From NCBI GenBank assembly GCA_017302295.1, contig JAFLDS010000007.1, positions 140,724 to 204,723 on the forward strand: a stretch of 64,000 nt of DNA, in the 5' to 3' direction. The notes under the pieces were generated by a model. It was not told the DNA's origin and searched no databases. It saw only the letters and a list, made by a program, of their open reading frames with translations. Both the position numbers and the translations under genes were made by a program. This DNA comes from Thauera sp. GTDB lineage: Bacteria > Pseudomonadota > Gammaproteobacteria > Burkholderiales > Rhodocyclaceae. The stretch's first letter is position 1, and each line of letters starts with the position of its first letter. Shown here in pieces: positions 8,377-25,849 of this stretch.

Positions 8377-8628
8377 ATGCCGACCAGTGTTGCCTTGGGC
8401 AGTCATTTCGAGCGCTTCGTCCGGGAGCAGGTGCAAACGGGGCGCTTCAACAACGCAAGCGAAGTGGTCCGTGCGGGCTTGCGCCTGCTCGAGGAAGGCG
8501 AGCAGCGCCGGCAACTCGAACTCGACGCCCTGCGGGCCGAAATCGCGGCAGGCCGGGCCAGCGGCGAACCCAAGTCTGCCGACGCGGTGTTCGATCGCCT
8601 CGAGGGTCATCGCACCCACGAGTCTTAG
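8377..8628 (+). CDS. parD: ParD-family antitoxin without an adjacent toxin
   Basis: 83-residue ribbon-helix-helix antitoxin. The N-terminal strand and helices read MPTSVALGSHFERFVREQVQ, then GRFNNASEVVRAGLRLLEEG, the classic ParD/CC2985 signature. A flexible C-terminal tail follows, which in ParD proteins wraps the ParE toxin. Normally parE follows within a few bases, but here 89 non-coding bases lead straight to a restriction-modification gene and no ParE fragment is visible. It is therefore a solitary antitoxin. It could be a leftover of a broken parDE pair or could have been recruited to regulate the restriction gene through the tandem repeat upstream. Confidence 0.9.
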   Translation: MPTSVALGSHFERFVREQVQTGRFNNASEVVRAGLRLLEEGEQRRQLELDALRAEIAAGRASGEPKSADAVFDRLEGHRTHES

Positions 8629-13021: not shown

Positions 13022-13300
13022 ATGACCCCCAACATCCTTCACATCGAGATCCAGCCGGCCGGGGACGCGCTCGCGCGCTTCGGCGCCGATCTGCAGGCTG
13101 TCATCGCCAGCGAACCGGTCGCGCCCTATTCCGGAGTCGGTTTCGAGACCATGACGCAGTTCGGGGAAGTGTTCACACCCAAGCGCTGGGAGCTGATCGA
13201 AACACTGAAAGCAGTCGGGCCGCTGACGATCTACGGACTTGCGAAGCGCCTTTCACGCCATTACCGCAATGTTCACAAGGATGTCACCGCACTGATGTAA
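13022..13300 (+). CDS. Truncated HVO_A0114-type winged-helix regulator
   Basis: 92-residue product with the N-terminal two thirds of the HVO_A0114 family of putative DNA-binding proteins. It shows FTPKRWELIETLKAVGPLTIYGLAKRL and the recognition-helix segment SRHYRNVHKDVTAL. Family members normally run on for 20-40 residues (a GL-x-x-wing and a C-terminal strand). Here the frame ends at ALM-TAA inside the wing, so DNA binding may be impaired. GGAGAT before the ATG supports the start. These proteins usually partner a TumE-type toxin, and none is present. The bases just after the stop resemble a hicB segment, which suggests that recombination removed the 3' end. Confidence 0.7.
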   Translation: MTPNILHIEIQPAGDALARFGADLQAVIASEPVAPYSGVGFETMTQFGEVFTPKRWELIETLKAVGPLTIYGLAKRLSRHYRNVHKDVTALM

Positions 13301-13304
13301 GGCT

Positions 13305-13333
13305 TCCCGGTGGCGGGCACGGTCGCGCAATAC
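13305..13333 (+). pseudogene. Short hicB-like remnant
   Basis: 29 bases resemble the hicB stretch at 12730-12758 (about 23 of 29 identical by eye), encoding a version of PVAGTVAQ. It begins directly behind the truncated regulator and ends at the outer edge of repeat R1. The match is short and could be chance, but its position at two junctions makes a recombination scar plausible. Confidence 0.35.
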
Positions 13334-13337
13334 CGGT

Positions 13338-13434
13338 GTGCGCGCCGGTCCCATCCTCCGGCTTGTATCGGCTGCCTCGGAATCCCTACCGCCGGTCGCA
13401 GGGCACGTCCCTACCGGTTTCGCGCGGCGCGCAC
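13338..13434 (-). repeat. Stem-closed repeat R1 (minus orientation)
   Basis: 97-bp element read on the minus strand. Its ends pair perfectly over 10 bases (GTGCGCGCCG with CGGCGCGCAC). Just inside the stem is the shared core GCGAAACCGGTAGGGACG. A TATGCT box lies six bases before the stem (13441-13446, minus strand). R1 is one of six related elements (R1-R6); it is intergenic, between the truncated regulator and higBA. Confidence 0.75.
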
Positions 13435-13522
13435 GGCTGAAGCATAGTCCGGCGGCGCATCCAGATCGACCGCGCCTTACCGCTTTCTACCCAGGGGTGG
13501 TGGATCTTTACTGACGCTTGCA

Positions 13523-13547
13523 GATACTAACGATGATCGTTACTATC
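13523..13547 (+). promoter_or_regulatory. 25-bp near-perfect palindrome, HigA operator
   Basis: Outer arms GATA/TATC and inner arms TAACGAT/ATCGTTA form a palindrome with one symmetric mismatch, centred four to five turns of sequence before the code and ending five bases before the higB start. HigA-type antitoxins bind such palindromes to repress higBA. The site overlaps where a ribosome-binding site would be, so no clear one is seen for higB. Confidence 0.6.
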
Positions 13548-13551
13548 AATC

Positions 13552-13833
13552 ATGATTCATTCGTTCGGTGACAAGGACGCAGCGGCCATCTTCGCCGGCT
13601 TTCAAGTCCGCCGTTTGCCTGTCGAGATCCAGTCCGTTGCGCGACGCAAGTTGAAGCAGATCGATGCCGCGACCCAGCTCGATTCATTGCGGATTCCGCC
13701 CGGCAACCGGCTCGAGGCGCTGCGCGGCAATCGCGGCGGGTGCCATTCGATCCGGATCAACGATCAATGGCGCATCGTTTTCCGCTGGAATGACGGACAA
13801 GCGCTCGACGTGGTGATCGTCGATTACCACTGA
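13552..13833 (+). CDS. higB: HigB-like toxin (RelE/ParE superfamily)
   Basis: 93-residue toxin of the HigB/YoeB-like plasmid-maintenance killer family. It has ARRKLKQIDAATQLDSLRIPPGNRLEAL, GCHSIRINDQWRIVFRW and the ending VVIVDYH; the conserved Arg/Trp residues of the IRINDQWRI strand are all present. Such toxins cleave mRNA on translating ribosomes. The toxin precedes its antitoxin, the usual higBA order, with 14 bases between the genes. The strong palindrome upstream suggests autoregulation. The pair looks complete. Confidence 0.94.
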   Translation: MIHSFGDKDAAAIFAGFQVRRLPVEIQSVARRKLKQIDAATQLDSLRIPPGNRLEALRGNRGGCHSIRINDQWRIVFRWNDGQALDVVIVDYH

Positions 13834-13847
13834 CCTGGAGAAGATCA

Positions 13848-14327
13848 ATGACCATCGATCGCAACGACATACCCGGCCTCGACCTGTCGGACGTGAGCAC
13901 GGGCGAGCACCTGCCCGCCGTCTCCCCGGGTGAAGTACTGCTGCACGACTTCATCGAACCGCTGGGCATCACCCGCTATCGGCTGGCGAAGGCAATCAGC
14001 GTGCCGCAGCGGCGCATCGACGAAATCTGCATGGGCACGCGCGGCATCACGGCCGACACGGCACTGCGCCTTGGGCGCTTCTTCGGCATGGAGGCGGCTT
14101 TCTGGCTGAATCTGCAAAACCAATACGATCTTGAAGCCGCTGCAGCCGAACTCGGGGCCCGGCTCGACGCCGAGGTTGCGCCGCTGTCGTCCACCGGGGA
14201 ATCGCGGTACGTCCGGTACGCCTCGTCCCGGTCTGGCGAGCCCTTGATCGCCGCCGAGCCGGGGAACGACGATCGGCCGCAGAACGCTCGCGCCGTCGCG
14301 GCCGTCGCAACTCGAAACCCCCGCTGA
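13848..14327 (+). CDS. higA: HigA-type antitoxin with an aberrant C-terminal tail
   Basis: 159-residue helix-turn-helix antitoxin. The XRE-type domain is clear (PGEVLLHDFIEPLGITRYRL, then ISVPQRRIDEICMGTRGI and LGRFFGMEAAFWLNLQ) and the normal family end lies near residue 115. The last ~40 residues (from about GESRYVRYASSRSG) are Arg/Ala/Ser-rich and look like non-coding DNA read through. Bases ~14288-14327, encoding the end of this tail, resemble the block upstream of repeat R3, and the stop codon TGA lies inside the -35-like CTGACA of R2. The antitoxin core should still bind HigB and the palindrome at 13523. Confidence 0.92.
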   Translation: MTIDRNDIPGLDLSDVSTGEHLPAVSPGEVLLHDFIEPLGITRYRLAKAISVPQRRIDEICMGTRGITADTALRLGRFFGMEAAFWLNLQNQYDLEAAAAELGARLDAEVAPLSSTGESRYVRYASSRSGEPLIAAEPGNDDRPQNARAVAAVATRNPR

Positions 14328-14353
14328 CATCGCGGCGCCGCTCGGCCTAAACT
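14324..14353 (+). promoter_or_regulatory. Promoter-like element upstream of repeat R2
   Basis: CTGACA (14324-14329) and TAAACT (14348-14353) are 18 bases apart, and the stem of R2 starts seven bases after the second box, where transcription would begin. R3 has the same two boxes with the same 18-base gap (15310-15315 and 15334-15339). The CTGACA box overlaps the higA stop. Pattern-based. Confidence 0.4.
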
Positions 14354-14360
14354 GCGAACG

Positions 14361-14460
14361 GTGAGCGCGGTGCGAAACCGGTAGGGACGCGCCCCTGTGA
14401 CCGACGGTAGCGACTCTTAGGCAGCCGATCAAAGCCGAAGTGTTGACAAGCCGCGCTCAC
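14361..14460 (+). repeat. Stem-closed repeat R2
   Basis: 100-bp element closed by the perfect 10-base pair GTGAGCGCGG / CCGCGCTCAC. Its core (GCGAAACCGGTAGGGACG, then CCCCTGTGACCGACGGTAGC) is nearly identical to R5 at 16597. Compared with R1 and R3 the two stem strands have changed together, so pairing is kept while sequence differs. A TAAACT box lies seven bases upstream. It sits between higA and the DUF1345 gene. Confidence 0.8.
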
Positions 14461-14555
14461 CCATCGACGTCGCGACGGCGGGTGCCGGTCCCTGCCTGCT
14501 CGGGGGAAAGCCGGCGCTTGACCGGCAGCAGGCTTCGCTCATCGACAGGACCGCC

Positions 14556-15254
14556 ATGCCTCACCCCGTCTCCCATCCCCTGCACGGCCTGCACTGGTCG
14601 GTGCGGCTGAGCGCGCTGCAGCGGCAGGGCCTGGCGCTCGGCGCCGCGGGGTTCGCCATGCTGGCGGTCACCCGCGGCACGCTGCCCCGCGATGAGCTTC
14701 CCTGGCTGGTCGGCTGGCTGGCCTACAGCGGCATGTACTTCGGCATCACCTGGCACTGGATCGCCGGCCTGGACGCGCAGGCGACGCGACGCCGCGCGCA
14801 GTGGATCGACCCCGGGGCGGCGGCGCTGTTCGTGTTCGCCACCGTCGCGGCCTGCGCGAGCGTGATCGCCGTGGCGCAGGCGGTCGGCACCAGCCGCGCG
14901 TTGCTCGGGATGGCCCGCTGGGGCTACCTCGCACTGTCGATGGCATCGCTGGCGTCGGCCTGGCTGCTGCTGCAGACGGTATTCGCGCTGCACTACGCGC
15001 ACGTCTACTACGGCCTGCGCGACGAGGAACACGAACCCCGCCGCGGCCTGCTCTTCCCCGGCGGCAGCGAGCCGGACTACCTGGACTTCCTCTACTTCTC
15101 GCTCGTCATCGGCATGACGTCGCAGGTTTCGGACGTGGCCGTCGCCAACCGGCATCTGCGGCGGCTGACGCTGACGCACGGCGTGCTGTCCTTCGCTTTC
15201 AACCTCGTCGTGCTGGCCATCGCGGTGAATGTGTTCGCCGGCAGCCTCGCCTGA
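14556..15254 (+). CDS. DUF1345 family membrane protein
   Basis: 232-residue integral membrane protein with about five hydrophobic segments: near residues 28-42, 45-63, 84-108, 124-147 and 205-228. The run FALHYAHVYYGLRDEEHEPRRGL followed by FPGGSEPDYLDFLYFSLVIGMTSQVSDVAV is the DUF1345 signature, a family of unknown function common in Proteobacteria. AGGA upstream of ATG 14556 is a reasonable ribosome-binding site. It is the only ordinary housekeeping-like gene inside this repeat-rich stretch and is flanked on both sides by repeats R2 and R3. Confidence 0.9.
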   Translation: MPHPVSHPLHGLHWSVRLSALQRQGLALGAAGFAMLAVTRGTLPRDELPWLVGWLAYSGMYFGITWHWIAGLDAQATRRRAQWIDPGAAALFVFATVAACASVIAVAQAVGTSRALLGMARWGYLALSMASLASAWLLLQTVFALHYAHVYYGLRDEEHEPRRGLLFPGGSEPDYLDFLYFSLVIGMTSQVSDVAVANRHLRRLTLTHGVLSFAFNLVVLAIAVNVFAGSLA

Positions 15255-15346
15255 TGTCGAGAAGGGAGACGACCCGCGCCGCCGCGCCAGTCGCTACGCG
15301 AGACAGCCGCTGACATCACGCCGTCGTTCGGCCTAGACTGCAGACG

Positions 15347-15444
15347 GTGCGCGCCGCGCGAATCCGGTAGGGACGAGCCCCTTCGACCGGAGTTAGGGAT
15401 TCCGAGGCAGCCGAGACATGCCGGAGAATGGGACCGGCGCGCAC
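15347..15444 (+). repeat. Stem-closed repeat R3
   Basis: 98-bp element closed by GTGCGCGCCG / CGGCGCGCAC (perfect over 10 bases). The core begins GCGAATCCGGTAGGGACGAG. A TAGACT box at 15334-15339 lies seven bases upstream and a CTGACA box 18 bases further. Similarity to R2 extends some 60-75 bases upstream of the stem, so R2 and R3 are copies of a larger unit than the stem-closed element alone. Confidence 0.8.
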
Positions 15445-15480
15445 CTCTCATGTTGAGCGCAGGCGCAAGGGTGGATCGAT

Positions 15481-15600
15481 GGCCGACCGGTTTCCCGGCC
15501 GGCCTGTGGACGGTTAGTGTGGTCCATGCCCCGCCCACGCTGGCACCCCACTCTGACAGCCGGCTATCGGTCGTGGGCCCAGCCGGTTTCGCGCATCCAC
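15481..15600 (-). repeat. Repeat R4 with trailing hairpin (minus orientation)
   Basis: Read on the minus strand: TACACT box (15607-15612), six bases, then GTGGATGCG opening the stem, then GCGAAACCGGCTGGGCCCA and an inner hairpin CCGGCT...AGCCGG. CGTCCAC closes the outer stem at 15506-15512 with one G-T wobble. A second GC-rich hairpin (15481-15505) follows directly. R6 at 23447-23541 is a close relative (about 90% identical by eye) with the same trailing hairpin. The shared box and GAAACCGG core tie R4 and R6 to R1, R2, R3 and R5. Confidence 0.7.
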
Positions 15601-15613
15601 GGCTGGAGTGTAG

Positions 15614-16094
<481 letters not shown>

Positions 16095-16096
16095 TC

Positions 16097-16417
16097 CTAT
16101 GCGGTCTTGCCGGCCGTTCGGGCGCGGAGCCGTTCACGCAACAGCGCCATCGCATCGTCGTGGCCGTGAACGCGGGCCTCCCCGGAATCGACCCGCGCAA
16201 GCGTGGCCGACACCTTTGCGAAAAGCCAACCGTCGTAGCCGGGGTCCTTGTCGAGCAGGAACTCCGGTAGCAGCGTATCGGCCGCGTCCTCGATGGAGAT
16301 CATGATCCCGACGGGACGGTCGTTCCTGGTCACGACGACAGGCTCCCGACGCGCGGCATCGAGAAACTCGCCGAACCGGTTCTTGGCGTCGCGCGCCGAC
16401 ATGACTTTCATGACCAT
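16097..16417 (-). CDS. Phd/YefM-type antitoxin
   Basis: 106-residue prevent-host-death protein. The DNA-binding N-terminus VMSARDAKNRFGEFLDAAR, then PVVVTRNDRPVGIMISIEDA, is the classic Phd/YefM signature, followed by a disordered toxin-wrapping tail. ATG 16417 is the longest start; ATG 16411 is equally possible. It precedes the ParE-like toxin at 15810-16094 in antitoxin-first order. Pairing of a Phd antitoxin with a ParE-type toxin is common among mix-and-match class II modules. It probably represses its own promoter in the region just to the right. Confidence 0.92.
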   Translation of the reverse strand: MVMKVMSARDAKNRFGEFLDAARREPVVVTRNDRPVGIMISIEDAADTLLPEFLLDKDPGYDGWLFAKVSATLARVDSGEARVHGHDDAMALLRERLRARTAGKTA

Positions 16418-16498
16418 TCCCCTCGGGCGTGTTCAATGATGTCCATTGTAGCCACTTTGGACATCTCGGAGACGCCGGCGACACCGCGCAGACATCCT

Positions 16499-16583
16499 GC
16501 GTCGTCGTGCCGCACATGCCCGGCGTTTTCCCTGCGGGCGACACCCGCGACGAGGCCATCGCAAACGCACGCGAGGCCATCGG
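16499..16583 (+). pseudogene. hicB antitoxin gene remnant
   Basis: Encodes CVVVPHMPGVFPAGDTRDEA then IANAREAI, which aligns with the HicB core in hicB at 12557 (VVVPDIPGCFSAGDTLDEAI...NAREAI). No start codon with a ribosome-binding site, no hicA and no C-terminal DNA-binding domain are present. Homology ends where the TACACT box and stem of R5 begin, so repeat R5 marks one breakpoint. Confidence 0.75.
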
Positions 16584-16596
16584 CTACACTGAATTC

Positions 16597-16696
16597 GTGA
16601 GCGCGGCGCGAAACCGGTAGGGACGCGCCCCTGTGACCGACGGTAGCGACGCCGAGGCAGCCGACAAATGCCGGAGTGTTGACAAGCCGCGCTCAC
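16597..16696 (+). repeat. Stem-closed repeat R5
   Basis: 100-bp element with stem GTGAGCGCGG / CCGCGCTCAC and the core GCGAAACCGGTAGGGACGCG. It is almost identical to R2 apart from a few bases in the second half (GCCGAGGCAGCCGACAAATG here). A TACACT box (16585-16590) lies six bases upstream, supplied by or fused to the hicB remnant. Confidence 0.8.
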
Positions 16697-16731
16697 CCTT
16701 CGGCTCGGGCACCTGGCCGTTGGCGCCCTGC

Positions 16732-17712
16732 TCAGTTGGCGAACCAGTCCCGGCCATTGCTGCGGATGAGCTGCGCCAGCGCGTCGAAGTCCGCCCACTC
16801 GTCCTCGGAGTGGATGATCGGCGGCTTGGCGTTGCCGAGGCGGGGCAGCTTTTTCATCAGATACGGAAGATCGGCGAATGCCGATGCAAAGTAACGCGCA
16901 GGCTTGCCCAGGGCGTACGCGTAGCCGGCCTCGAAGATCGCGCTGGTCGGCAGCTTCTTCGGGTAGACGAGCATGAAATGGCGGCTCTGATCGATGGCGC
17001 GCAAGTCCTTGTCGGCCGAGACGTCGGCGGCCTGGAACTTTGCGATCGTGTCGATCTTCTCGGCCGACCAGTAGACGCGCAGCTTGCAGTCGAGCAGCGC
17101 ATCAAAGACCTTTTTCATCTCGCCCCATTTCGCGTTGTATTCGTGCGCAGGCCAGCCTGCCATCGGCACCGACAGGAACACATCGAACGCGCAAGGCGGC
17201 GCACCGTCCGGCTTGCGCGTCCGATTCGTCGCGTCAGTGAGCACGGTATCGAGCGCTTGCCATTCCTTGTTGAACTTGCGTTCGAACTTGGCATTGTCCA
17301 GCGGAACAGCGAGCGACTCGTTGACGGCGCGCACCAGCCGCAGCATGTCGGCACGCTTGGTGTCGGCGGCATTGAGCTCGTTGAGCGGGCTGGGCAGGGC
17401 GTCGCGCTTGAGGCCGATCACCAGCGGGATGACGCACGCATTCTTCGCATAAAGGTGTTTGGCGAGCGCCCCTGCTTCGAACATGATCCAGGGCGCAAGC
17501 CGGTTGTCGGGCGTCAGGCACAGCACGCCCATGCTGCTTTCGTCGAGCACCTCCATGAGCGCATCGAACCAGGCCTCGCCCTTGGCGATGTCTTCCGACG
17601 ACAGGAACACGTCATCGGGACTGAGCGCGTCGAAGAAGTCGATCAACCAGGTCTTGAGCGACTCGGCGACGTAACTGCTCACCTCGCCGGACCAGCTGAT
17701 GAAGATTCTCAT
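16732..17712 (-). CDS. TIR-domain protein fused to a deoxyribosyltransferase-like domain
   Basis: 326 residues. The N-terminal TIR-like domain (MRIFISWSGE, then PWIMFEAGALAK) has a glutamate at E79 where bacterial TIR NAD-cleaving enzymes keep their catalytic residue. The C-terminal half (FDVFLSVPMAGW, RVYWSAEKI, then TSAIFEAGYAYALGKPARYF) resembles nucleoside 2-deoxyribosyltransferases, with E261 in the FEAGYAYALGKP loop as candidate catalytic residue. The start at ATG 17712 has AGAGG at good distance; a longer upstream frame is unlikely. TIR proteins in such islands usually act as anti-phage effectors that deplete or process NAD. No ThsA, SIR2 or cyclase partner is seen here. Confidence 0.8.
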   Translation of the reverse strand: MRIFISWSGEVSSYVAESLKTWLIDFFDALSPDDVFLSSEDIAKGEAWFDALMEVLDESSMGVLCLTPDNRLAPWIMFEAGALAKHLYAKNACVIPLVIGLKRDALPSPLNELNAADTKRADMLRLVRAVNESLAVPLDNAKFERKFNKEWQALDTVLTDATNRTRKPDGAPPCAFDVFLSVPMAGWPAHEYNAKWGEMKKVFDALLDCKLRVYWSAEKIDTIAKFQAADVSADKDLRAIDQSRHFMLVYPKKLPTSAIFEAGYAYALGKPARYFASAFADLPYLMKKLPRLGNAKPPIIHSEDEWADFDALAQLIRSNGRDWFAN

Positions 17713-17922
17713 GGCGACCTCTTGTTGTTCGTTCTGTGAGTCTGGACCCGACGACGTTCCGTCTGGAGTGCGCCCCGGGGAGCGCTGGCTGCGAAGAGGA
17801 GCGATGCCGACGACGCAAGAGCGTATCGGAAGAATAGACACCCGTTGTCAGCACGGCAATCGGACCGAGGCGGCATGCACCATGGGCTAAACTCTTTGCA
17901 AGCCCATGCCAGGAGTCCTCAA

Positions 17923-19299
17923 TTGACCGAACACTTCGATCTGATCGTCATCGGCGCCGGTTCCGGCGGTGTGGCCGCTTCGCGGCGGGCCGCGGTGCAT
18001 GGCGCGCGCGTGCTGATCGCCGAGGCCGACCGCGTCGGCGGCACCTGCGTGATCCGCGGCTGCGTGCCCAAGAAGCTGATGATGTACGCCGCCGGGTACG
18101 CCCAGGCGCTGCAGGAGGCTGCGGGCTACGGCTGGACGGACGTCGGCGGACGCTTCGAGATGTCGCGCTGGGCGGACGCCAAGGCGCGCGAGATCGATCG
18201 CCTGGAAGGCATCTACCGCAAGATGCTGGCCGACGGCGGCGTCGAGCTGGCGCTGGGCCGCGCGCGATTGCTGGCCCCCGATACCGTCGACATCGACGGG
18301 CGCACGCTGCGGGCGAGCCGGATCCTGATCGCCACCGGCGGCGCGCCGGCGCACGACGCACTACCCGGGCTCGAGCTGGCGATGACGTCCAACGACGTGC
18401 TGAACCTGCGTGAAGTGCCGAAGTCGCTGATCGTCATCGGCGGCGGCTACATCGCCATGGAGTTCGCCAGCATCCTGGCCGGCCTGGGGGCGAAGGTCAC
18501 CGTTGCCTACCGCGGCGCCCATCCGCTGCGCGGCTTCGATACCGACCTGGGCACTCGCCTGGCACAGGCGCTGGAAGCGCGCGGCATCACCCTGGCAGCC
18601 GGCGTGGGCCTGCAGGCGCTGCAGCGCAGCGGGTCGGGCTTTGCGCTGCAGCGTGCCGACGGTTCAGTGCTGAGCGCCGACGCCGCGCTCAACGCCACCG
18701 GCCGGCGACCCAACACTGCAGGGCTGGGCCTGGCCGAAGCGGGTGTGCGCCTCACCGCCGGCGGCGCCGTCGCGGTGGACGCCGAGAGCCGCAGCAGCGC
18801 ACCCGGCATCTGGGCGATCGGCGACGTGACCGACCGCGTCAACCTGACGCCGGTGGCCATCGCCGAAGGCCGCGCCTTCGCCGACACCGAATTCGGCGGC
18901 CGGCATACCCGTGTGGACCATCGCACCGTGGCGAGCGCGGTGTTCACCGATCCGCCGATCGCCACCGTCGGCCTGTCCGAGGCCGACGCCATGAAGCTCG
19001 GCCCGGTGGATGTGTATGAGTCGGACTTCCGCCCGATGAAGAGCGCCTTCGCCGGCAGCGACGCGCGCAGCTACATGAAGCTGGTGGTCGACGGCCTCAG
19101 CGAGCGGGTGCTGGGCATCCACATGATCGGCGCCGACGCGCCGGAGATCGTGCAGAGCCTTGCCGTCGCCATGACCTGTGGCGCCACCAAGCGCGACTTC
19201 GACCGCACCATCGCCGTCCACCCGACGGCGGCCGAGGAATTCGTGCTGATGCGCCAGCCGTCGCGATCGGCGGGGCCGGTCGCCGCGCCCATGAGTTGA
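17923..19299 (+). CDS. gor: Glutathione-disulfide reductase
   Basis: 458-residue class I pyridine-nucleotide disulfide oxidoreductase. The N-terminal FAD motif is [10 protein letters not shown], the redox-active disulfide sits in [12 protein letters not shown], and the NAD(P)-binding GGGYIAMEFA is followed by a C-terminal dimer domain with the active-site HPTAAEEFV. The RGCVPKKL spacing favours glutathione reductase over dihydrolipoamide or mercuric reductase. The start is TTG 17923 with AGGAG seven bases upstream. It regenerates glutathione from GSSG with NADPH in the cytoplasm. Partial copies of this gene lie at 15625-15799 (5' end) and 25340-25500 (3' end). Confidence 0.93.
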   Translation: MTEHFDLIVIGAGSGGVAASRRAAVHGARVLIAEADRVGGTCVIRGCVPKKLMMYAAGYAQALQEAAGYGWTDVGGRFEMSRWADAKAREIDRLEGIYRKMLADGGVELALGRARLLAPDTVDIDGRTLRASRILIATGGAPAHDALPGLELAMTSNDVLNLREVPKSLIVIGGGYIAMEFASILAGLGAKVTVAYRGAHPLRGFDTDLGTRLAQALEARGITLAAGVGLQALQRSGSGFALQRADGSVLSADAALNATGRRPNTAGLGLAEAGVRLTAGGAVAVDAESRSSAPGIWAIGDVTDRVNLTPVAIAEGRAFADTEFGGRHTRVDHRTVASAVFTDPPIATVGLSEADAMKLGPVDVYESDFRPMKSAFAGSDARSYMKLVVDGLSERVLGIHMIGADAPEIVQSLAVAMTCGATKRDFDRTIAVHPTAAEEFVLMRQPSRSAGPVAAPMS

Positions 19300-19348
19300 C
19301 GAACGGGTCACCCCACGAAGCGAAACGACGCCCGCGGTATTTCCCGAA

Positions 19349-22300
19349 TCAGGCGTCGCGGGTGGCGTCGGAGATCCAGCCGACCAGTCCGCGGAAATCG
19401 ACCTTTTGCCAGGTGCAGCCGTCCGCGTCGACGGGCTCCTCGCCATCGAGCAGCGTGAAGGTGGCGCCGGCCGGGATGACGCCGATGCGCTCGCCTTGCT
19501 GCATGGAGGGCCGGTCACGCACGAGCAGCGCCTGTCCCGCCGGCGTCGAGGGGACGGCCGCCCTCGCGCGTACCCGCGACGCCAGGCCGGCCGGCTTGAC
19601 TGCGGCGCGCGTCGGCGGCCCGAACACGCAGGTCAGGCGAAGGTTTCGATCGGTGGACGCGTGAAACGTGGGCGTAGCGATCTCGTCCAGGCTCATCGCA
19701 TCGCAGTCGAGCACGGCCCAATGGCGGAATACCTGTTCGCCATCGGTCGACGGCGCCACGAGCGCGACCTTGGTCGACCGCGGGAAGATCCTGTAGAGCC
19801 TGCCGAAGCCGGCGCTTCGGCCATTGACGTCCTCGGTGTCGCACAAGATGAGCGGCGCCCGCTGACCAGCGGTGCGGATGTCGAGCGTGTGATGCTCGAA
19901 CGCCAGCGGACAGAACAGGAATGAAAGGTCCAGCAGGACGCTGTCGAGCTCCGTCCCAACCGGCTTTTCGAGCGCAACTTCCACGTCGGTCCACGCTGCG
20001 GGTTTGGCCAGGCTGTCCTTGTCGATGGCCGGATCCTTGATCAGGCAGGCCAGCAGACTGAGCGACTCCTTGCTCGGTTCGATGGGCGTCATCGCCCCGC
20101 TCGACAGGCTGTAAACGGTGCCCCACAGCAGTTGCGACCTGCGCTCCTCGGCGGACGCCTGACCGCTCTGCGCAGGGTGGCGGAACGCATACAGGCGTCC
20201 GTCGGAGCGTATCGTGCCGTCTCCCACCGGCCGGAAGGTGAGTTCGACCGAGCCGGCATCGGGCGCTCCCGCACGCAGGACGATGCGCTTGACGCCGATC
20301 CCGGCGAGCCGGACGCGCTCCTTGTTGGGCGGAATCAGAACAGCCTGGGGATGAATGTCCATCAGGTTGAACGTGGCGCGCCCGTCCCGATTGAGCCGGG
20401 CGACGATGTCCGGCGTGTTCTCGCTCGAGAGGCGGTACTCGCGGCTGTAGGGGTAGGAGGTCTGGAAGTCCGACTTCAGGCGCTCTTCGATCTCGTCCAG
20501 GATGCCGCGAAACACCGGGCGCAGGATCGCCAGGCGCTGCTGCAACCCGTCCCCGGCATAGCGGTCGGCGTACGTGCCCTGGCGCCCTTCCGCGTCCTTC
20601 TCCAGCAGTTCGGCGATACGGTCGAAAACGCTCGCGAGCCGATAGTCCACGTCGTCCCAAGCCCGATACGCCGACGCTTCGTAGGCGCGGAGCAGGTAGT
20701 ACTGGTAGCGGACGAGCCGGTCCCTGGCGCGCTGCTCCATGTCGTCGATGAAGAGCAGCGCCTGATGGTCCAGGATCGCCAGGGTACTCTGCCGCTGCCG
20801 CGCCAGGCTGGCGATGTCGACGAAGTTCGCCGTGATCCGGCCGTAGGCGCCGGCGAGCGTCTGCAGCGCGTCGTCGAGCCGGCGGATGAAACCGGCCTTG
20901 CGCAGGTTCAGGTCGACGATCCTGTCGATCAGTTCGCCGTATTCGGGCGACTCGGCCGCCAGATGCTCGAGTTCCGCCTCGATCTCGCTGTGCGGGATCT
21001 TCAATCCCTTGAACGCGTCGCCGATCTGGCTCAGCGCCGGGCCGATGTTCTTCCCGACGTGCGCGATGCGATCGGCTCTCGTCTTCGCGTCATCCTCGTC
21101 GCTGGCGGCTTGCCCACCCTTCGGCTTCGCCTCCGCTTTCACCTTCGCCGCCCACTCGGTGAAGGTGTCCTTTCCGGCACCCTTCGACCAGCCCGCCAGG
21201 GCCTGGAATCCATCGCCCACGGCGTCGATCGGGTCGGAATCGGCGGCCGTGGCATGCCGGGCGATGACAGGAGCCAGCGCGCCGACGACGCCCAGTGCGG
21301 GTTGCCCCACCGGAACGACCGTGCACACGGCGCCGAGCGCCTGCGCCGCGAAGTCGATCCGCGCCCGCATCAGCAGGTCGTTGGCGGCGGCAACGCGGAG
21401 CGCCTCGCGCCGCCGCTCCAGGTCGTCCTGCAGCGCGAGCAGTTCCGTGCGCAGGCTCGTCAGTTCCTCCTCGACGCGACGCAGGACGCCCTCGGCGGCG
21501 TCGATGGATTCGCCGGCCTCCGCCGTGTCGGCGTTGAGGTTCGCGATCGCGTCATCCATTGCCGCTAGCGCGTTCTGTTCCCGCTCGGCGGCATGACGGA
21601 CCCACCGGGTCATGATCAGCGTCCGGAGCCCTGCGTCGACCTCGTCGTCGTACATGCGCATGTGCGACTGCAACGAGAACAGCGGCGTCCACCCGACCGG
21701 ATTGCCGAAGTAGTCGCGATGGCTCGCGATCCGGTGAAGCAGGGTGCGAACCTCGGCCTTCACCGCTTCGTAATGGGCGTCGCTTTCCCAGCCGGCGCCC
21801 TCTGGCGTCCTGCCGCCATCTGTGTCGAAGGCCTGCCGATAGACGGACAGGATCTCCCCGGTGGTCTCGACCCGGTCAGCCAGGTACATGTCGCGCGCAT
21901 GGCGCAGCACCACTTGCGCGAGGAAGGGATGGAGCCAGGCGTTGGCGCTGTCATTCACCACCGGCTCCGGACTGGCTCCCGTTTCCTTCCGCGCCGCGGG
22001 GGCCGGATACGCGACCCCATCGGCGGTCGTGCCCTGAGCCGTCTTCCTGACCTCGCTCCAGCTCCCCTTGCTGTCGGGCGCCGTGTAGTAGTAGGTGAGC
22101 TCGTAGTGGGCCCAGCTCGCGGGTTGCCCGCCGGGCGCCGCCGCGACGTCGGCGGCCTTGCGGCCGCACGCGCCGCCCGCCCTGTCGATCAGCCCATCCG
22201 CGATCCTCCGGTTGGACGCGAACTGGCCGGCGTCGCCGCCGTTTCCGGGTGTGCCCGGCGCCTGCCCGCCGGTCGCGGACGTCGGCCTGCAGTTCGGGGC

Positions 22301-23323
22301 GCCATAAGAAGCGAGATCCCGGTCCTTGATGGCCAGCGCCCGGCCCAGCGTTCCATCCCATTGCGATGACTTCACGTAAGTGGCGGGCACGTCGAACTCG
22401 GCCGTCACCGTCTTCTTCGTCGTCCACGGCCACAGGCTCGCATAGCGCACCGACCGGCTGCGGGTCGAGGGATGGCTCGTGCCGGCCGTCCACCGCATCC
22501 CTTCGCCCGCGTCCTGGCCGCGGCCACCGCGGAGGACGAAGCGCGTCGAGAGCTCGCCGCCCGCGTCGAGCCGGTCGAAGCGGACAAGCATGTCCCCGGC
22601 CTTGCGGCCGTGAGCCCCGTCGTCCCCCTTCGCCCCGGTCTCTACGGCTCCGCGGGCCCGGTCGCGCTGCCACGCCAGCGGCGAGGTGTCGATTCGCGCC
22701 TGGCCTTCGAAGGTGACCTCGCGCGCGAAGATCCGCACGTCCGTTTCCGGTAGGTAAAGTTCGTCATGAATGACGAGGTGGTCCGCGCACAGCGTCAGCG
22801 AGCCGACCAGCGAGGCATGACGCTGGTCCGCGGGCATGGTGGACGAACGGTCCACGTGGTACATCCGGTGCAGCCGATTCCTGTCGTCCGGCCCGCCGAA
22901 CACGAGCGTCATACCGGAGATGACGTGGTCTTCGCTCCCATCGGCGCGGGGCGTGACCGTGCGCTTGAAGTAATGCGTGTCGCGAGGGTCGGGCGCGATG
23001 GGCCGGCCGCGGATGACTTCGCGCTCCGCCTTGAGCGGGGGAACCGGAGAGATCGTGATCGTCTGGCTGACTTCCACACCGTCTCGCGTCGCCGAGAACG
23101 TCGCGGCGAACGCCGCGCCGTCATCCGGGGCGGGATCGAAGTGGAAAGCGCCGCCTGCCTGATCGAACGCGACCTTGCCCCTGGGTACGGGATCGAGGCG
23201 GTAGCGGAGCGAGCCGGCATCCAGCCGTCGCGTGTCGAACTTCAGCACCAGCGGATAGCCGTACCACACCCGCTGATCCGGAATGGCCCCCAGGTCTGAG
23301 CCCTGCGTGTTGACACCATCCAT
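19349..23323 (-). CDS. Large protein of unknown function with C-terminal SH3-like domain
   Basis: 1324 residues, family not recognised. The N-terminal ~90 residues look like an Ig/cadherin-like beta domain (GYPLVLKFDTRRLD ... VSQTITISP). Residues ~235-385 contain Gly-rich, collagen-like stretches (GAKGDDGAHGRKAGD; GGQAPGTPGNGGDAG). From ~575 to 650 a long Glu/Arg/Leu-rich coiled coil leads to a hydrophobic segment at ~660-690 (AVCTVVPVGQPALGVVGALA), followed by further helical regions. The last ~60 residues (ALLVRDRPSMQQGERIGVIP ... VGWISD) resemble a bacterial SH3 domain. A helix-hydrophobic-helix middle is reminiscent of pore-forming or injected proteins, but this is only a resemblance. A deleted second copy lies at 25021-25334. 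Confidence 0.7.
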   Translation of the reverse strand: MDGVNTQGSDLGAIPDQRVWYGYPLVLKFDTRRLDAGSLRYRLDPVPRGKVAFDQAGGAFHFDPAPDDGAAFAATFSATRDGVEVSQTITISPVPPLKAEREVIRGRPIAPDPRDTHYFKRTVTPRADGSEDHVISGMTLVFGGPDDRNRLHRMYHVDRSSTMPADQRHASLVGSLTLCADHLVIHDELYLPETDVRIFAREVTFEGQARIDTSPLAWQRDRARGAVETGAKGDDGAHGRKAGDMLVRFDRLDAGGELSTRFVLRGGRGQDAGEGMRWTAGTSHPSTRSRSVRYASLWPWTTKKTVTAEFDVPATYVKSSQWDGTLGRALAIKDRDLASYGAPNCRPTSATGGQAPGTPGNGGDAGQFASNRRIADGLIDRAGGACGRKAADVAAAPGGQPASWAHYELTYYYTAPDSKGSWSEVRKTAQGTTADGVAYPAPAARKETGASPEPVVNDSANAWLHPFLAQVVLRHARDMYLADRVETTGEILSVYRQAFDTDGGRTPEGAGWESDAHYEAVKAEVRTLLHRIASHRDYFGNPVGWTPLFSLQSHMRMYDDEVDAGLRTLIMTRWVRHAAEREQNALAAMDDAIANLNADTAEAGESIDAAEGVLRRVEEELTSLRTELLALQDDLERRREALRVAAANDLLMRARIDFAAQALGAVCTVVPVGQPALGVVGALAPVIARHATAADSDPIDAVGDGFQALAGWSKGAGKDTFTEWAAKVKAEAKPKGGQAASDEDDAKTRADRIAHVGKNIGPALSQIGDAFKGLKIPHSEIEAELEHLAAESPEYGELIDRIVDLNLRKAGFIRRLDDALQTLAGAYGRITANFVDIASLARQRQSTLAILDHQALLFIDDMEQRARDRLVRYQYYLLRAYEASAYRAWDDVDYRLASVFDRIAELLEKDAEGRQGTYADRYAGDGLQQRLAILRPVFRGILDEIEERLKSDFQTSYPYSREYRLSSENTPDIVARLNRDGRATFNLMDIHPQAVLIPPNKERVRLAGIGVKRIVLRAGAPDAGSVELTFRPVGDGTIRSDGRLYAFRHPAQSGQASAEERRSQLLWGTVYSLSSGAMTPIEPSKESLSLLACLIKDPAIDKDSLAKPAAWTDVEVALEKPVGTELDSVLLDLSFLFCPLAFEHHTLDIRTAGQRAPLILCDTEDVNGRSAGFGRLYRIFPRSTKVALVAPSTDGEQVFRHWAVLDCDAMSLDEIATPTFHASTDRNLRLTCVFGPPTRAAVKPAGLASRVRARAAVPSTPAGQALLVRDRPSMQQGERIGVIPAGATFTLLDGEEPVDADGCTWQKVDFRGLVGWISDATRDA

Positions 23324-23689
23324 TCTGCCCCCTGCGATACATGCTCACCGGGATCAGGCCGAGTGTGGCAAAACTTCGCCTGCCCGCCACGCCTCGCCAG
23401 CGTCTACAGATCCATCGGGCAGGCCGGCCGGATTCTCGGCCGGCCTGTGGACGGTTGGTGTGGTCCGTGCCCCGTTCACGCTGGCACCCCACCCTGACAG
23501 CCGGCAATCGGTCGTGGGCCCAGCCGGTTTCACGCATCCACGGCTGAACTATAGACCGGGCGTGGTGCCGGCGCCGGTGTCCGCGCCGGGTACCGAACAT
23601 AGCAGGCCGTGCAAGGCGGTATACCTCACCGACCGAACGCATTACATTGCGCCAAAACGCATTCAAAAGAATAGACCTTCGCAACGCCC
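23324..23689. other. 366-bp gene-free stretch with repeat R6
   Basis: Left end: upstream region of the 1324-residue gene (minus strand, start 23323). Middle: repeat R6 and its trailing hairpin. Right end: upstream region of the ClC gene, without a convincing promoter pair. No coding signal seen. Confidence 0.6.
23421..23541 (-). repeat. Repeat R6 with trailing hairpin (minus orientation)
   Basis: Minus-strand relative of R4. A TATAGT box (23548-23553) is followed after six bases by GTGGATGCG, then GTGAAACCGGCTGGGCCCAC, an inner hairpin, and CGTCCAC closing the stem (23447-23453). A GC-rich hairpin at 23421-23446 (arms AGGCCGGCC / GGCCGGCCT) follows directly. It sits at the 5' side of the 1324-residue gene while R4 sits at the 5' side of the broken reductase fragment. 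Confidence 0.7.
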
Positions 23690-25000: not shown

Positions 25001-25020
25001 CCCTGTCAATGCGGACGGAC

Positions 25021-25334
25021 GGAAACGACGTCCGCGGCATTTCCCCCATCAGGCGTCGTAGACTGCGTCGCTGACCCAGCTGACCAGTCCCTGGAAGTCG
25101 ACCTTTCTCCAGGTGAAGCCATCCGCGTTGACGGGCTCCTCGCCGTCGAGCGGCGTGAACGTGGCGTACCCGTTCCGACTGAGGCGGGCGACGATGTCGG
25201 GTGTATTCTCTCTCGAAAGGCGGTACTCGCGGCCGTACGGGTACGAGGTCTCGAAGTCCGACGTCAGACGCTCTTCGATCTCGTCAAGGATGCCGCGAAA
25301 CCCCGGGCGCAGGATCGCCAGGCGTTGGTGCCAC
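25021..25334 (-). pseudogene. Internally deleted 3' copy of the 1324-residue gene
   Basis: Two segments match the large gene at 19349-23323: 25021-25166 matches about 19319-19466 (the 3' end and following bases) and 25161-25334 matches about 20373-20546. They join at GTGGCG, which also occurs at both ends of the missing part (19461-19466 and 20373-20378), so 912 bp (304 codons) were lost in frame between short direct repeats. The remaining frame still reads to a stop (ending AVYDA) but lacks any start region. Confidence 0.9.
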
Positions 25335-25339
25335 CATTC

Positions 25340-25500
25340 TCGTGCAGAGCCTTGCCGTCGCCATGACCTGTGGCGCCACCAAGCGCGATTTCGATCGCAC
25401 CATCGCCGTCCACCCGACTACGGCCGAGGAATTCGTGCTGATGCGCCAGCCGTCGCGATCGGCGGGGCCGGTCGCCGCGCCCGTCAGTTGACGAACAGGT
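25340..25500 (+). pseudogene. 3' fragment of a glutathione reductase gene
   Basis: About 160 bases nearly identical to gor 19148-19309, encoding VQSLAVAMTCGATKRDFDRT, then IAVHPT and the C-terminus to a stop (ending AAPVS). It overlaps the convergent 3' end of the DUF202 gene by a few bases. Together with 15625-15799 it represents a second, split reductase copy. Confidence 0.9.
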
Positions 25501-25849
25501 AAGCCAGCAGAACGAGTCCCAGCACGGCGACCATCAGGTTGATCGCGGGACCGGCATTGACACTGTAGCCGTCGGGAATCTCGATCGGCTTGAGGGTCCT
25601 GACCACCTTGCGGTAGTGCCAGGACGAACTGACCGCCACCAGCGCCCCCAGCAGCACGAAGCCCAGACCGATCCAGAACGACGCGCCGCGTTGCAGGTGG
25701 GGGTCGCCCGCGCGCAGGATCAGGTGCATGAACAGCCCGAAGCGCTCGATGACGAAGCCGAAGGCCATCAGCGCCAGGCTGGTGCGGTTCCATGCCAGAA
25801 GCGTGCGCTCGGCGGCGAAGAACACACGCGGGTCATTGAGGTCGGACAT
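25484..25849 (-). CDS. DUF202 (YidH-like) inner-membrane protein
   Basis: 121-residue membrane protein with the DUF202 signature near the N-terminus (DPRVFFAAERTLLAWNRTSLAL). Three hydrophobic segments lie at about residues 25-45, 58-76 and 102-120. Function unknown; relatives occur in eukaryotic vacuolar SPX/VTC proteins and bacterial YidH. Its last codons (YLFVN-stop) lie in DNA shared with the gor 3' fragment, so the two genes were probably always convergent neighbours here. A large hairpin lies just upstream. Confidence 0.92.
   Translation of the reverse strand: MSDLNDPRVFFAAERTLLAWNRTSLALMAFGFVIERFGLFMHLILRAGDPHLQRGASFWIGLGFVLLGALVAVSSSWHYRKVVRTLKPIEIPDGYSVNAGPAINLMVAVLGLVLLAYLFVN

Follow-up and report, generated by a model that had tools for sequence, protein, structure and literature searches.

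The stretch of Thauera sp. DNA considered here (contig JAFLDS010000007.1, positions 140,724 to 204,723; 64,000 nucleotides (nt), hereafter the window) raises the question of what its six short stem-closed repeats, R1 to R6, might be. A preliminary description had taken them for transcribed structured RNAs, each beginning at its terminal stem behind a fixed promoter-like TANNNT box, with a short non-autonomous mobile element as the main alternative. Comparison with relatives supports the first view: the repeats and their relatives look like structured RNA genes and show compensatory changes. In Mu-like prophages, relatives are found directly downstream of the gene for the capsid protein gpF, on the opposite strand, and the type of RNA follows the C-terminal tip of gpF. 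It is probable, if well short of certain, that the RNA serves as an antitoxin, giving immunity to an RNase tip of gpF, and that R1 to R6 are orphan copies.

All six repeats lie where they were first placed, each with its stem, core and TANNNT box. The shared core occurs without mismatch six times in the window, solely in R1 to R6; three further listed matches carry two mismatches. The box stands 6 nt (R1, R4, R5, R6) or 7 nt (R2, R3) ahead of the stem. Two subfamilies can be distinguished, group A (R1, R2, R3, R5) and group B (R4, R6), which have box, stem start and core in common and 3' halves that cannot be aligned. Each RNA is made up of three helices: P1 closes both ends, followed by P2 and P3. 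The host genome holds four group A copies, one 32-nt partial match (E 0.004) and two group B copies. The RNAs and the features beside them are as follows, with covariance model scores for group A.

13338..13434, minus strand: R1, group A RNA, 97 nt; P1 GTGCGCGCCG/CGGCGCGCAC; 80.5 bits
13441..13446, minus strand: −10-like box of R1, TATGCT
14324..14353, plus strand: sigma-70-like promoter of R2, CTGACA-18-TAAACT
14361..14460, plus strand: R2, group A RNA, 100 nt; P1 GTGAGCGCGG/CCGCGCTCAC; 121.8 bits
15310..15339, plus strand: sigma-70-like promoter of R3, CTGACA-18-TAGACT
15347..15444, plus strand: R3, group A RNA, 98 nt; P1 GTGCGCGCCG/CGGCGCGCAC; 79.8 bits
15481..15504, no strand assigned: strong hairpin past R4, between the convergent R3 and R4, without a T-run (read from the sequence)
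15506..15600, minus strand: R4, group B RNA, 95 nt
15607..15612, minus strand: −10-like box of R4, TACACT
16585..16590, plus strand: −10-like box of R5, TACACT
16597..16696, plus strand: R5, group A RNA, 100 nt; P1 GTGAGCGCGGC/GCCGCGCTCAC; 122.2 bits
23422..23445, no strand assigned: hairpin past R6, like that past R4 (read from the sequence)
23447..23541, minus strand: R6, group B RNA, 95 nt
23548..23553, minus strand: −10-like box of R6, TATAGT

The evidence for structure is comparative, because single-sequence fold energies of the copies are unremarkable (z +0.37 to −2.68). When 25 group A rows are fitted to the model, 94.2% of the cells are paired, as against 31–45% with slid partners; both sides change at 13 of 26 pairs (6.0 ± 1.1 in shuffles), and the covariation score is 0.233 (shuffles 0.098 ± 0.009). 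Compensation in P1 can be read directly from GTGAGCGCGGC/GCCGCGCTCAC, GTGCGCGCCG/CGGCGCGCAC and GCGAGCGCAGC/GCTGCGCTCGC, the last from locus L066. The seven group B rows, aligned by MAFFT under a hand-written structure, are 93.8% paired and show both-sided change at 9 of 28 pairs, as against 2.3 in shuffles; their P2 variants are CCGGCT/AGCCGG, CCGGTT/AACCGG and CCCACT/AGTGGG. Covariation is thus present in both subfamilies, which upholds the earlier proposal of a structured RNA with a promoter-like box and a 5' end at the stem. G-U cells outnumber A-C cells by 27 to 5 in 22 rows, favouring the promoter strand, with a single pair supplying 13 of the 27; L067, L021:9311 and L023:9277 were left out of this count and included in the group A covariation test. 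At gathering score, no Rfam 15 family matches the window, nor L045 or L047. Searches of Rfam with R1 to R5 at E up to 10 gave two weak unrelated matches, and a likeness to the cobalamin riboswitch was not borne out. Two further copies were seen. L066:9920-10019, which belongs to group A, lies amid other late genes of a phage and is oriented in the sense direction; it has a TACAGT box, and two of its P1 pairs are compensated. L067:9178-9277 is a diverged copy whose model match lies on the strand opposite its core.

The box, too, is found well beyond the window. TANNNT lies 4–7 nt ahead of the stem in 26 of 28 copies, a count in which the phage copies, sharing the gpG start, are not independent, and which omits the degenerate L025:10370 and L027:607, the odd L067 (no box seen), the 5'-truncated L023:9281 (TAGACT seen), and L071 and L089 (TATACT seen). 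A −35 sequence with at least four of six matches accompanies 14 of the 26 boxes (3.25 in shuffled upstream DNA, maximum 10), 13 of them at a spacing of 18 (0.73, maximum 5). As the earlier account held, the box is fixed, being retained in copies whose flanks mostly differ. Compared pairwise, ten copies are 0.26–0.35 identical outside the element (shuffled 0.27, maximum 0.34), with a downstream hairpin common to R4 and R6; in the box, half of whose positions are fixed by definition, identity is 0.75. The elements appear to be RNA genes with their own promoter; in the window, a full promoter match exists for R2 and R3 only. These two were the only promoters found by a sigma-70-type scan of 13200–16800 (0.2 expected in shuffles), and the −35 region matches at 3 of 6 positions in R1 and at just 2 of 6 in R4, R5 and R6. 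The 5' end of the RNA, 95–100 nt long, would coincide with the first base of the terminal stem or adjoin it.

What such an RNA might act upon is suggested by its phage relatives. Group A RNAs lie upstream of gpG, antisense to it, in L024/L045, L035, L040, L044, L046/L047, L065, L094 and L095; the same slot holds a group B RNA in L071 and a B-like RNA in L089. The next gene is gpF in L024, L035, L040, L044, L071, L089, L094 and L095. One extra open reading frame (ORF) separates gpF from the RNA in L046/L047, and the upstream ORF in L065 is unrecognised; L026 retains gene remnants, and L036, L039, L042 and L066 are in other settings. The group B copy of L071 is followed by a hairpin matching that past R4 and then by TTTT, as read from the sequence. 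Among eight annotated phages, F and G overlap or abut in Mu, D3112, VW-6B, UMP151, vB_ThpS-P1 and ST405-OXA48phi1.1; vB_RhkS_P1 has a different gene order, and B3 has a 123-nt F–G gap (L311:1869-1991). Antisense, the B3 gap carries a TATAGT box and a sequence of 94 nt whose ends pair in a 10-bp stem; this stem begins 11 nt past the box, farther than in group A; in Pfam, the gpF of B3 has the MuF domain only. The candidate B3 RNA sits where a 99-nt sense ORF is annotated.

The slot was surveyed by seeking gpG in family genomes (16/395), class genomes (14/369) and two IMG/VR scans (the best 80 of 439 and the best 80 of 502). After five of 193 loci were set aside for want of a usable gpG start, 188 junctions remained, 139 of them non-redundant: 62 are filled (a gap of 60–160 nt), 44 are gapless (<40 nt) and 33 are neither. 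A box matching TATAAT at four or more of six positions lies in the first 36 antisense nt of 53 filled, 5 gapless and 9 other junctions; at five or more positions the counts are 37, 3 and 4 (shuffles 3.8, maximum 9). On the sense strand, filled gaps have 6 boxes at the lower threshold and 1 at the higher. Since the idea of an antisense box arose on earlier loci, the 16 filled junctions new in the second IMG/VR scan were counted separately: 15 have the antisense box at 4/6 and 13 at 5/6, with one sense box at each. Terminator-like hairpins follow the same strand in filled gaps (19 antisense, 5 sense, 5.8 shuffled), as against 2 antisense and 1 sense in gapless junctions (3.4 shuffled).

The gaps hold more than one kind of RNA. 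A T-arm motif occurs antisense in 14 filled and 2 other junctions (0 and 0 sense; 0.3 and 0.1 shuffled) and in none of the gapless ones, where one sense match was seen. When 14 T-arm loci are folded, six (L100, L102, L104, L116, L123, L160) form a cloverleaf. Both-sided changes in six gap groups that were folded, without a shuffle control, occur at 12/26, 12/22, 4/34, 4/19, 1/27 and 2/11 pairs. In the gaps that were read there is one RNA per gap, with no tandem repeats. Antisense tRNA-like or T-arm RNAs were noted behind gpF in L087, L100, L102, L104, L116, L117, L123, L124, L141, L146, L160, L172, L175 and L182; at most of the typed T-arm loci the gpF tips belong to one cluster, some weakly matching MuF_C or PBECR3. 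An Rfam scan of L182 found a cobalamin riboswitch elsewhere in that locus. At 6 of the 44 gapless junctions, a D12-class DNA methyltransferase is encoded by the closest long ORF ahead of gpG.

Filled gaps mostly lie behind gpF proteins whose C-terminal tip is nuclease-like. The upstream gene was defined as the closest ORF with 200 codons or more; nine of the first ten (three chosen, seven random) match Phage_Mu_F in Pfam, and six have a PBECR2 tip. Over all 62 filled junctions, Pfam finds Phage_Mu_F in 60, PBECR2 in 30, PBECR3 in 7 and MuF_C in 2; over the 44 gapless junctions, it finds Phage_Mu_F in 31, PBECR2 in 4 and no MuF match in 13. Among MuF proteins, PBECR2 is thus present in 30/60 filled as against 4/31 gapless cases (p 5e-4). 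The median upstream ORF has 442.5 codons at filled and 319 at gapless junctions. BLAST of the last 140 residues yields three tip clusters (30 filled and 4 gapless, 16 and 3, 12 and 5), to which 58 of the 62 filled but only 12 of the 44 gapless tips belong (p 5e-13); gpF minus its tip forms a single cluster of 91. The RNA therefore adjoins a toxin-type tip and is found mainly with it, as an immunity gene is.

The type of RNA goes with the tip of gpF and not with the remainder of the protein. The types were set by patterns written after the gaps had been read, and two of them, "tac" and "clam", were assigned by hand. T-arm RNAs accompany 12 of 16 tips in cluster 2, 2 of 12 in cluster 3, none of 30 in cluster 1 and none of 4 singletons. 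All six group A phages tested (L024/L070, L035, L040, L044, L094, L095) have PBECR2 tips, as does the B-like L089. In 145 pairs with the same RNA type, identity is 0.38 in the tip and 0.46 in the rest of gpF; in 716 pairs of different type the values are 0.17 and 0.37. Tip identity still tracks RNA type after regression on the rest of gpF, the observed difference being reached in 0 of 1000 shuffles. Individual pairs illustrate the exchange: L156 resembles L080, L081, L115 and L145 at 0.31–0.33 in the rest and 0.62–0.75 in the tip and has the same RNA type, and L070 and L099 are alike at 0.60 in the rest and 0.07 in the tip and have different RNAs. The RNA thus swaps together with the tip, though linkage may explain part of this.

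MuF toxins need immunity, and the tips of Proteobacteria phages have largely been left as unknown extensions (Jamet et al. 2017, PMC5576092, in the sections cited). PBECR is described as a predicted RNase fused to MuF, the domain of Mu being called inactive (Iyer et al. 2017, PMC5512222, likewise in part). Mu itself shows a weak MuF_C match and no gap, which fits that assessment. It is proposed that the gpF tip acts as an RNase, as predicted for its PBECR/MuF-toxin kind, and may be delivered into cells; that the antisense RNA would be made from its own promoter in the lysogen while the late genes are off; and that it would bind and block the tip in the manner of an RNA antitoxin. Immunity in a lysogen would presumably call for just such a gene, antisense and under a promoter of its own. 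Different tips would have different cognate RNAs, the tRNA-like ones perhaps mimicking a substrate. What sequence comparison shows is the structure, the box, the position and the agreement of RNA type with gpF tip.

The copies in the window seem to lack such a partner. No PBECR2 match was found in the host genome, and among 29 Thauera genomes only G006 has one, at its prophage; for this reason the six copies look like orphan immunity RNAs, which Thauera may keep against incoming phage toxins. In its widest form the proposal, for which the chances appear evenly balanced, is that Mu-like phages shield their lysogens from the gpF RNase tip by RNA rather than protein, through exchangeable tip–RNA pairs in a constant location. 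In this scheme, tRNA-like RNAs that lack an anticodon would be substrate decoys for tRNA-cutting tips, three-helix RNAs would answer PBECR2 tips, and R1 to R6 would be orphan resistance RNAs of Thauera. If so, RNA would confer immunity to polymorphic toxins, extending RNA antitoxins from type III systems to those borne on phage capsids. Protection of lysogens from the MuF toxins of Proteobacteria phages would be explained, and the antisense gap behind a tipped gpF would become a positional rule for the discovery of further structured RNAs, tRNA mimics among them. Because RNA type and tip are paired, the claim lends itself to a direct test.

Several observations weigh against this proposal. Of the 62 gap RNAs, 26 match no type pattern. 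Tip and RNA gene are adjacent, so linkage alone could make them travel together, and the shuffle test corrects solely for identity of the rest of gpF. Same-cluster tips occur without an RNA gap at the 12 gapless junctions, and four filled junctions have a tip outside the clusters. Several PBECR3 and MuF_C matches fall below Pfam's own cut-off, and D3112 has a long gpF ORF with no recognised tip and no gap. The box of the phage copies overlaps the gpG ribosome-binding region on the other strand. R4 to R6 lack a −35 sequence; group A has no obvious terminator, and a terminator search of the window copies found none. The family is rare (10/395 family genomes, and in the class sample 1/369, the host itself), and decayed copies exist.

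Other explanations draw on the same data. The RNA could be a moron unrelated to gpF, a prophage effector acting on another host system such as defence, superinfection or an sRNA network. This is unlikely, yet it would account for a facultative antisense gene with its own promoter; small RNAs (sRNAs) are described at the lambdoid moron site (PMC4104026, as cited in part), and D3112 carries an anti-CRISPR gene in the next gap. It leaves unexplained why the RNA is associated with toxin-tipped gpF and changes with the tip. That matching would be equally expected if the RNA were a partner or cargo of gpF, bound by the tip in the virion and packaged or injected, and RNA binding has been suggested for the inactive Mu domain (Iyer et al., PMC5512222, in the part cited); the opposite strand and separate promoter, rather than late expression, and the chromosomal copies in a genome without PBECR2 make this improbable. 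Equally improbable is a cis-acting late-mRNA structure or a cis-antisense regulator of F and G. The location just before gpG and the overlap of the box with its ribosome-binding region would suit such a role, but neither F nor G stands beside the chromosomal copies, the promoter strand has more G-U than A-C cells, and promoters and terminator-like hairpins lie on the antisense strand.

Explanations at the DNA level fare worse. Several copies in both orientations within a variable region would be natural for a short non-autonomous mobile element with terminal inverted repeats, the alternative raised at the outset. It fits poorly and is very unlikely: the conserved unit extends upstream to a box outside the stem, so similarity does not end at the inverted repeats as in a miniature inverted-repeat transposable element, the inner helices covary too, and the copies are few. 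Integron attC sites have GTTRRRY-type ends. Hairpins of about 100 nt beside toxin-antitoxin genes bring attC-like sites between cassettes to mind, but the copies occur in both orientations and singly in phages, no such ends were seen by eye, and the idea is scarcely credible.

The preferred reading, an immunity RNA against the gpF tip, has partial precedents. In type III toxin-antitoxin systems (ToxIN), a structured RNA neutralises an endoribonuclease, and phage-borne pseudo-ToxI shows that a phage RNA can be an antitoxin; ToxN is a Kid-type RNase, and ToxI is a 36-nt pseudoknot from tandem repeats (PMC3475682, in the sections cited). Here, unlike in ToxIN, a BECR-type tip on a capsid protein would face a single three-helix RNA of 95–100 nt or a tRNA-like RNA from the opposite strand, and the gaps that were read contain no ToxI-like tandem repeats. 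MuF polymorphic toxins share the exchangeable C-terminal tip with immunity encoded just downstream, but the immunity proposed in the cited sections of Jamet et al. (PMC5576092) is a small protein ORF, not an RNA, and "noncoding" and "antisense" have 0 occurrences in the main text. The PBECR domains of polyvalent proteins are the same family fused to MuF, with no RNA partner described in the cited part of PMC5512222. AsxR and AgvB, small RNA genes at a conserved lambdoid moron site, differ as 51–60 nt Hfq-bound anti-sRNAs of other phages at another site (PMC4104026, again in part). The tRNA-like gap RNAs have an acceptor-like stem and T-arm in common with phage tRNAs, and L160 reaches 31.5 bits against the Rfam tRNA model (gathering 29), but where an anticodon arm would be expected its middle arm is a long hairpin ending in a tetraloop. 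Literature searches found no F–G RNA; they predated the gpF link, and RNA immunity to MuF/PBECR toxins was not itself searched for.

The family is of limited spread. Group A copies occur in 6 of 101 relatives including the host genome, all Thauera, and group B copies in 4 of 29 Thauera genomes including the host. An exact pattern was found among named genomes in 11 stretches, from Thauera, Parazoarcus, Aromatoleum and metagenome-assembled genomes. A covariance model built from nine A copies matched 10 of 395 genomes of the family, which fall in 3 of 68 genera, and 1 of the 369 genomes sampled from the class; both counts include the host. In IMG/VR, a pattern scan gave four stretches, of which L048, without a model match, was set aside, and later scans gave the other three only; the group B pattern gave none. 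BLAST of A copies against plasmids and phages, and of three gap RNAs against phages, found no match, and the B3 gap matched B3 alone. The DUF1345 gene of this locus is present in 5 of 29 Thauera genomes, the same five that have chromosomal A copies. In G006 (L021, around 8474-8573), the upstream flank is of the R5 type and the downstream flank of the R2 type, a combination that suggests recombination among the copies. In Parazoarcus communis (L036:960-2292), a CRISPR array ends about 80 nt away from a copy of group A that has a short flank resembling the start of gpG.

The region of R1 to R6 also holds toxin-antitoxin genes and a TIR-domain protein; the latter (16732-17841) has a nucleoside deoxyribosyltransferase match below cut-off. 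A gor-like gene has its initial 186 bp in duplicate (15614-15799 and 17911-18096, 95% identity), the first copy being truncated beside a ParE/Phd module. Further blocks of 82–95% identity are duplicated in rearranged order, 19148-19466 and 20357-20562 corresponding to 25015-25505, around a 1324-codon ORF and a chloride-channel gene.

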